From: a virus | IMG/VR virus record: IMGVR_UViG_3300010885_067404 | Location: 1-29,165 of that record | Length of the DNA: 29,165 bases | Reading direction: 5' to 3' (one strand) | Shown: positions 17,430 through 29,036 of the stretch, piece after piece | How the letters are laid out: the number at the start of each line of letters is the position of its first letter | Position numbering within the stretch: the first letter of the stretch is position 1 | The notes under the pieces: generated by a model | The model's database searches: none | Told to the model about the DNA's origin: nothing | What the model saw: only the letters and a program-made list of their open reading frames with translations | Made by a program: the position numbers and the translations under genes

Positions 17430-17565
17430 ATTTACTTGTCAAAATTGTGATAATACTTTTACTATTATAACAGATGAAGACGAGATACCTACAGGATGTC
17501 CGTTTTGCGGATCTAACTTAGAAGAAAATTATGATGAACAAGACAATAATGAAGAAGACGATTAA
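17410..17565 (+). CDS. Zinc-ribbon mini-protein, 51 aa
   Basis: ATG 17410 has GAGAG upstream; TAA is at 17563-17565. The product has two CxxC knuckles (TCQNCD at 9-14 and GCPFCGS at 29-35) followed by a very acidic tail (YDEQDNNEEDD). Zinc-ribbon plus acidic tail is typical of small proteins that bind nucleic-acid or transcription machinery. It overlaps the DUF1289 gene by 20 bp, and its stop overlaps by 4 bp the stop of the convergent GIY-YIG-like gene. Confidence 0.65.
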   Translation: MIEKEYKFTCQNCDNTFTIITDEDEIPTGCPFCGSNLEENYDEQDNNEEDD

Positions 17566-17963
17566 TATTTTATAACATTTACTTTATACCATTTACCATT
17601 TATTTGATCATTATAATATTCATCCGTTAATAAAACTTTTCTTATAAACTGCTCATTTACTTCAAGAAAATTAGTTTTACCTTTAGATTCACATAGATGT
17701 AATATTTCTCTTTTAAATCTAAGAGGATCTAATTTAGATTCTTTTTTAATATAATCGTTTGAACTATAGTACTCTTTCCAATCTGACTCAGATCTTGATT
17801 TCCTAGTTTTACCTTTCACTTTCTTTAATGACCAGAAGTATTTACGACCTATATATTTTTTGTTTTCTTTTAAATCATATATACAATATACAAAACCATA
17901 ATATTTCTTAATATCATAACCATCATACACTTCATTATTAAATAACCACGGATTAGTATACAT
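17562..17963 (-). CDS. GIY-YIG-like endonuclease, possible homing endonuclease
   Basis: The 133-residue product contains YGFVYCIYD and, ten residues after GFVY, KKYIGRK, matching the GIY-(10-11)-YIG spacing. Further family-like parts are the Arg/Lys-rich helix (KTRKSRSESDWKEYYSSN) and NFLEVNEQFI with the candidate catalytic Glu, then YYNDQINGKW. It is the only minus-strand gene in 14-20 kb, sits just after nrdJ, and has its own promoter candidate. Free-standing homing endonucleases often lie beside ribonucleotide reductase genes in T4-like phages. AAGG precedes the start. A Holliday-type or repair nuclease is possible. Confidence 0.6.
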   Translation of the reverse strand: MYTNPWLFNNEVYDGYDIKKYYGFVYCIYDLKENKKYIGRKYFWSLKKVKGKTRKSRSESDWKEYYSSNDYIKKESKLDPLRFKREILHLCESKGKTNFLEVNEQFIRKVLLTDEYYNDQINGKWYKVNVIKY

Positions 17964-28350: not shown

Positions 28351-28358
28351 TATAAATA
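28351..28358 (+). promoter_or_regulatory. TATAAATA late-promoter box before the tmRNA gene
   Basis: An exact TATAAATA begins 25 bases after the structural gene stop and ends just before the first hairpin of the tmRNA acceptor piece (28366). Transcription from it would start close to the mature RNA's 5' region. Confidence 0.65.
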
Positions 28359-28361
28359 ATA

Positions 28362-28675
28362 AGCTGATGTCGTTGACATCTAATGAAATAGACACTGAGG
28401 ACCCGGGGGCAGTACCCGGCGCCTTCACCAAAGATACTATCGCATTAGCTGCACCAGAAATGTAGTATGCAGGGGAATGTAAGTCGTTAGTATCTTTGAT
28501 GGGGGCGAAATAGGATCGACTGGTGTAGTAAAGATAAGATCGAGACTGAAGCAAAAAAACTAAATGCAAGAACTGCATCTAATGACAACGTTCCTTATTC
28601 CGCAATGAAAATTGCCGCTTAAGAATTGAGTCTGGGGTATGAGCTCCACCCTATTAAATAACGGGCTCACTTAAC
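28362..28675 (+). ncRNA. ssrA: Circularly permuted two-piece tmRNA
   Basis: The acceptor piece comes first: hairpin GATGTC/GACATC (28366-28380), T stem CCGGG/CCCGG around loop GGCAGTA (28403-28419), CGCCTTC, A and CCA (28420-28430). The coding piece follows: GGGGGCG (28501-28507) pairs with CGCCTTC and contains G3-U70, the alanine identity pair. It continues with AGGATCGAC, a tag frame from GCA 28575 to TAA 28622 (ASNDNVPYSAMKIAA) and an H-type pseudoknot: GGGT 28635-28638 with ACCC 28648-28651, and GAGCTC 28641-28646 with GGGCTC 28663-28668. tmRNA rescues stalled ribosomes and tags the peptide for proteolysis. Permuted order is typical of alphaproteobacteria. Ends and resume codon are estimates. 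Confidence 0.9.
28431..28497 (+). other. Intervening precursor segment of the permuted tmRNA
   Basis: AAGATACTA (28431-28439) pairs perfectly with TAGTATCTT (28488-28496) and so closes a 48-base loop between the acceptor CCA and the coding-piece 5' end. In permuted tmRNAs this segment is excised to give two RNA chains; here the 9-bp stem would stack on the acceptor stem in the precursor. Confidence 0.75.
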
Positions 28676-28699: not shown

Positions 28700-28909
28700 A
28701 TGACTAAGACCCCATATGAAATTAGATATGATCTATTGAACTTTGCACAACATCAGCTATCTAGTGAGTATTATGCTAAATTAGAACAAGCTCGCGAGAT
28801 TAGAGACTTTGCAGAACGTGAAACTGTTATTTCAAGACTTAAATACTTTACAAAAGATGATATAGTCCAGCTTGCAGAAGATCTTAAAAGTTTTGTTGAT
28901 ACTAAGTGA
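28700..28909 (+). CDS. Conserved small phage protein, 69 aa
   Basis: CAGGAGACTAC gives a strong ribosome site before ATG 28700. The protein MTKTPYEIRYDLLNFAQHQL with KLEQAREIRDF and YFTKDDIVQLAEDLKSFVD is helical and charged. Similar short proteins starting MTKTPYEIR occur in T4-like phages; function is unknown. It lies between the two tmRNA-like units and may be cotranscribed with them. Confidence 0.7.
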   Translation: MTKTPYEIRYDLLNFAQHQLSSEYYAKLEQAREIRDFAERETVISRLKYFTKDDIVQLAEDLKSFVDTK

Positions 28910-28927
28910 CAATTAATATATTATGAT

Positions 28928-29036
28928 GGAGGCGAAACAGAAGCTAAATAACATAGATGTAAACGACAACTATGTCCCTAGTTACGCACTAGCTGCATAA
29001 CATGAGCTCGGGAGAGCTTGGAAACAGAATCTCCCA
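28928..29036 (+). ncRNA. Orphan tmRNA-like coding domain (second tag and pseudoknot)
   Basis: GGAGGCGAAACAGAAGC (28928-28944) resembles both ends of the 5' part of the first coding piece, with helix 2 and the first pseudoknot missing between them. TAAATAACATAG, typical just before tmRNA resume codons, leads into a frame from GTA 28959 to TAA 29000 encoding VNDNYVPSYALAA, a canonical tag ending. After the stop, GAGCTC (29004-29009) pairs with GAGCTT (29014-29019), and its loop GGGA (29010-29013) pairs with TCCC (29032-29035), an H-type pseudoknot. No acceptor piece or CCA is nearby. An in-frame ATG at 28926 without ribosome site would give a 24-residue peptide. It could be a functional second coding piece or a decayed copy. 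Confidence 0.6.

Follow-up and report, generated by a model that had tools for sequence, protein, structure and literature searches.

The question raised by this locus is why a phage with an intact tmRNA gene should also carry, a short way downstream, part of another tmRNA coding domain, one that encodes a different tag. The window (the whole stretch of DNA analyzed here) is a 29,165-base virus record carrying T4-like phage genes, in which the order at the locus is tmRNA A, a 69-aa ORF, unit B (the partial second domain) and a cell-wall hydrolase gene. The features are as follows, with related sequences identified by L numbers.

28351..28358, + strand: TATAAATA, a T4 late-promoter motif just 5′ of the tmRNA A precursor
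28360-28670, + strand: tmRNA A, an intact permuted two-piece tmRNA (Rfam RF01849 alpha_tmRNA, 96 bits; RF04321 tmRNA_permuted, 87.7 bits)
28360..28430, + strand: acceptor piece of tmRNA A (Rfam RF01849, RF04321)
28420-28426, + strand: 3′ acceptor strand of tmRNA A, CGCCTTC
28428-28430, + strand: CCA of tmRNA A
28501..28670, + strand: coding piece of tmRNA A, whose terminal pseudoknot reaches 28670
28501-28507, + strand: acceptor strand of the tmRNA A coding piece, GGGGGCG
28566-28619 with stop at 28620-28622, + strand: tag of tmRNA A, ARTASNDNVPYSAMKIAA, amino acids conserved in 6 haplotypes
28700..28909, + strand: 69-aa ORF (MTKTPYEIRYD...), directly 3′ of the tmRNA in many relatives
28928..28937, + strand: acceptor-stem 5′ strand of unit B, GGAGGCG (28928-28934), plus AAA, by comparison with tmRNA A
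28937..28938, + strand: approximate deletion junction in unit B, from the alignment of the window, L001 and L004
28945..28956, + strand: leader of unit B, TAAATAACATAG
28959..29000, + strand: tag frame of unit B, GTA..GCA TAA, encoding VNDNYVPSYALAA and a stop; the resume codon is GTA here and GCA in L001/L004
29004..29035, + strand: orphan terminal pseudoknot of unit B, with S1 GAGC/GCTT, S2 GGGAGA/TCTCCC and loop GGAAACAGAA
29063..29165, + strand: start of the cell-wall hydrolase gene (PF07486), which runs off the window; the full gene was read in L001

The tmRNA A tag (28566-28622) is unusually long at 18 aa and ends in KIAA instead of LAA; its amino-acid sequence is nevertheless conserved. 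In 29 of 42 phage permuted tmRNAs the motif TATAAATA immediately precedes the acceptor piece (about 0.3 would be expected, an estimate from the background rate), and TTGAC(A) often lies 5′ of it at these loci. Between its acceptor and coding pieces the tmRNA precursor has an intervening segment, and this contains small ORFs in L004, L010, L014, L016 and L023, as well as in L065 (from 3961) and L046 (from 1169). One such ORF, MIYVRDEGQKIKNG..., whose end is the start of the coding piece, is kept in several contigs; in L003 it carries an in-frame insertion and in L019 a stop comes early. Elsewhere in the window, positions 17562-17963 on the − strand contain a gene for a SegE-like GIY-YIG endonuclease (PF19835). 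The 69-aa ORF has no significant match in PHROGs or Pfam and no relative in the phage collection searched, and the sole match of the whole region to that collection is 49 nt over the acceptor piece, in an unannotated record.

Unit B (28926-29036) begins about 16 nt after the stop of the 69-aa ORF and comprises an acceptor strand, leader, tag frame and terminal H-type pseudoknot. Rfam calls only the first tmRNA in the region and ARAGORN calls neither tmRNA A nor unit B, so unit B is called by neither program. The original prediction, that this is a second tmRNA mRNA-like domain encoding a different tag, is nonetheless confirmed by its leader, its tag frame VNDNYVPSYALAA and its terminal pseudoknot. 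The unit B sequence TGATGGAGGCGAAA matches TGATGGGGGCGAAA of tmRNA A at 13 of 14 positions, and the tag frame is open and ends in LAA, a typical degron; an ATG at 28926 lies in the same frame. In the pseudoknot, 29004-29007 pair with 29016-29019 (S1) and 29010-29015 with 29030-29035 (S2). Any acceptor half had been thought missing, and this is correct for the acceptor piece, as the only one that Rfam finds in the window belongs to tmRNA A. It is not correct for the acceptor-stem 5′ strand of the coding piece, which is present at 28928-28934 and pairs 7/7 with CGCCTTC at 28420-28426; the corresponding pairing in tmRNA A has one more G-U pair. The predicted pseudoknot is real, since many intact permuted phage tmRNAs terminate in the same one. 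Among 16 copies, intact and orphan together, 98.8% of cells are paired, and double-sided changes number 23 vs 6.0 +/- 1.9 in shuffles. Because of this shared, covarying structure, the homology of unit B to tmRNA coding pieces is beyond chance.

A search of relatives with the tag pattern matched only four other IMG/VR contigs, which represent two further haplotypes, L001/L045 with tag ANDNYVPSYVLAA and L004/L005 with tag ANDNYVPSYALAA. All unit B contigs share the order tmRNA A, ORF, unit B and hydrolase as far as each contig reaches. No intact tmRNA with tag B was found in IMG/VR, where the exact tag is present only as an orphan, and a looser tag pattern had no match in species genomes, so a host origin of the tag was rejected. 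A match of unit B to Acinetobacter phage 133 (E 0.1) lies between rnh and gene 34 and was taken as chance.

These haplotypes display unit B in different states of decay. The L004 copy is longer on its 5′ side and keeps what the window has lost, the D region and helix 2 strand (GAAATAAGATCAACAAGTGTATTAAAGGCAAACCGAGACAAAAGC). Its acceptor strand AGGTCAG makes only 3/7 pairs with the L004 acceptor strand CGCCTCC, and its D motif is TCAAC where 43/43 intact coding pieces have TCGA (a motif that partly defined their collection). In the window and L001 the acceptor strand is still present, and about 34-35 nt that include the D region and helix 2 strand are deleted. Thus, what is essential and missing from unit B differs between the two lineages. 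The tag B haplotypes differ by two changes, A1V in the window and A10V in L001, both of which alter the amino acid (0 are synonymous), vs 4 synonymous and 0 amino-acid changes among six haplotypes of tag A (Fisher p 0.067); full unit B is known in three haplotypes only, so such selection tests are weak. From these substitutions, tag B appears to be drifting. Against decay, none of the three unit B haplotypes has a broken tag frame or broken pseudoknot pairing. However, of the 117 single substitutions possible in tag B only 4 would yield a stop, and few substitutions separate the haplotypes, so the open frame says little, and the suggestion that a clean frame argues against decay is not supported. 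The broader form of that argument, that retention of both elements speaks against random decay, likewise finds no support, since essential parts of the coding piece have been lost differently in different relatives and the tag changes alter amino acids.

Could unit B still function? The original prediction considered a second coding piece giving an alternative degron, and unit B might in principle pair with the single upstream acceptor piece and add a second tag, so that proteins would end in NDNYVPSYALAA. The 7/7 acceptor pairing and the LAA end of the tag are as such a molecule would have them, but the window and L001 lack the D region and helix 2 strand, L004 has 3/7 acceptor pairs and a mutated form of the otherwise invariant TCGA, and the resume codon is GTA in the window. 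With parts that a coding piece requires thus lost, we consider this reading extremely improbable. We give next to no credence to translation of unit B from ATG 28926 as a short degron-decoy peptide (MEAKQKLNNIDVNDNYVPSYALAA): the in-frame ATG is present in the window and L001, but in L004/L005 the tag frame has no ATG, GTG or TTG after an in-frame stop, so the 24-residue peptide is not shared, and no obvious ribosome-binding site precedes 28926. A decoy for SmpB, also put forward earlier, would need the tRNA-like part that unit B lacks. A candidate promoter for unit B itself, TTGATA-17-TATTAT at 28896-28924, was rejected, as there are fewer promoter-like sites here than in shuffles. If unit B is instead a remnant, peptides from infected cells would be expected to end in NDNVPYSAMKIAA and not in NDNYVPSYALAA.

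Comparison with other tmRNAs is informative in understanding where unit B came from. Its 5′ part is nearest to L030-L032 and its tag and pseudoknot are nearest to L075/L065, whereas tmRNA A is nearest to the L003/L014 group (161/165). By these affinities unit B is of a different tmRNA type from tmRNA A and not its copy. A diverged tandem duplicate of tmRNA A would lie, as unit B does, adjacent and on the same strand, but given these separate nearest relatives and the poor alignment of A with B, such an origin is very unlikely. L065 has an intact tmRNA with tag ANDNVAPSYALAA, and directly after it comes a homolog of the hydrolase downstream of unit B (35% identity, E 1e-25). The window and L001 share 99.9% identity as far as the ORF end and differ by about 3% from unit B onward. 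Between the window and L004 there is no difference in the spacer and hydrolase start and 5-13% difference in the tail gene and ORF, and their best match is downstream of the unit B tag. Because the identity of the window to L001 and to L004 switches there, unit B sits at a recombination joint.

Unit B is therefore very probably a decaying remnant at that joint, where the coding piece of a formerly resident permuted tmRNA would have left its 3′ part stranded. A two-piece tmRNA of another type would once have occupied the locus, and recombination there would have introduced tmRNA A and the 69-aa ORF as a cassette that displaced it, with the 3′ part of the old coding piece staying behind the ORF as unit B. 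Such a remnant would no longer function in trans-translation, having no acceptor piece and having lost either the acceptor strand, as in L004, or the D region, as in the window and L001. We infer the direction of these recombination events from the present arrangements.

Orphan pseudoknots behind this ORF are recurrent. Tagless orphans of the tmRNA type follow members of the same ORF family in L006/L007/L053/L060/L067, L055, L095, L106, L114 and L034-L039, and L041 has one in a looser, less clear form; overall they are found in at least seven lineages. A scan of the 160 bases after the ORF found the pseudoknot at 11 of 96 distinct loci vs 0.1 expected from shuffles, the 11 positives not being independent but representing six lineages; L095 and L041 were found separately. 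The L095 pseudoknot extends past the 160-base range and follows a truncated reading frame. That region (1992-2186), with a short, seemingly truncated frame and a cysteine-containing N-terminus FCPLPWNGVSIRNNGDLRICCNA, fits a recombination scar. Matches to the pseudoknot pattern lie in tmRNAs or behind this ORF, apart from two chance matches. L060 and L071, at 99.5% identity, are distinguished by 247 nt that lie between 51-nt direct repeats and consist of the ORF and one pseudoknot copy. This pair gives a direct view of presence and absence of the cassette, without the direction of change. Such a with/without-insert pair exists for the ORF-pseudoknot arrangement; for the window's own unit B there are decay states only.

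Why, then, does the pseudoknot persist? Judged from its position, pseudoknot B has most likely been kept as a structure at the 3′ end of the ORF mRNA, because a terminator-like hairpin occupies the same place in many relatives that lack the orphan. In L002, whose ORF is 91% identical, a hairpin and then TTT stand where the window has unit B, and pseudoknot B would form the 3′ end of the ORF message at this site. A good U-tract is present only in the L106 orphan, and the scan called no strong terminator at the window pseudoknot. The same recombination could also have left the orphan pseudoknot as a pure scar without function, to which we assign a substantial but less than even chance. The orphans of L006 and L114 hardly differ from the pseudoknot of the tmRNA itself, which is how a recent duplication would look, and the restriction of the pattern to tmRNAs and the 3′ side of this ORF also fits a scar. 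On the other hand, the older-looking orphans (L034-L039, L041 and L106) keep paired stems despite diverged loops, and the orphan occupies the site of the terminator-like hairpin of other relatives. In L055 and L095 the orphan and upstream pseudoknots differ at four bases each, all within two compensated pairs; we do not take this as proof of selection on the orphan, as both copies may have diverged inside working tmRNAs. Extending the proposal that the pseudoknot caps the ORF mRNA, we suggest only tentatively that T4-like phages may have co-opted tmRNA terminal pseudoknots as portable mRNA 3′ ends, with the small ORF moving and being retained as a pseudoknot-bounded cassette in which the pseudoknots would give both recombination homology and a stable 3′ end; we think this possible but rather doubtful.

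Fragments of tmRNA genes left by genomic-island integration are known (PMC4131195) and ssrA fragments occur in prophages (PMC9004378). Like unit B, an integration-left fragment is a 3′ part stranded across inserted DNA beside an intact tmRNA. Here, however, the intact gene is in a T4-like phage, the insert is a single 69-aa ORF, the fragment is a coding-piece end of another tmRNA type, and the nine window proteins searched included none named as an integrase. Aquatic phages are known to carry two-piece tmRNAs (PMC9004378; methylophage Melnitz), and unit B shares with the permuted phage form (RF01849/RF04321) the coding-piece leader, tag frame and terminal pseudoknot, but has no acceptor piece; in addition, the window copy has no D region, and the acceptor strand of the L004 copy is broken. 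Mycobacteriophage DS6A has a CDS-less tmRNA that hardly extends beyond the tRNA-like domain, and a DS6A-like molecule inhibits tmRNA, perhaps by titrating SmpB (PMC4131195, PMC11915505). That too is a partial tmRNA in a phage, but unit B represents the other half and is carried by a T4-like phage. In the open-licence literature we found no phage reported to carry a second tmRNA coding domain, and in the literature searched no description of the recurrent tmRNA-ORF-pseudoknot arrangement.

An intact tag frame and pseudoknot are thus not in themselves evidence of a second working tmRNA. The remnant origin would mean that phages swap tmRNAs, with new tmRNA-ORF cassettes supplanting old ones and fossils remaining, so that the evolution of tags may be readable from the scars. 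If the orphan pseudoknot does cap the ORF mRNA, part of a tmRNA would have been reused as an mRNA 3′ end.
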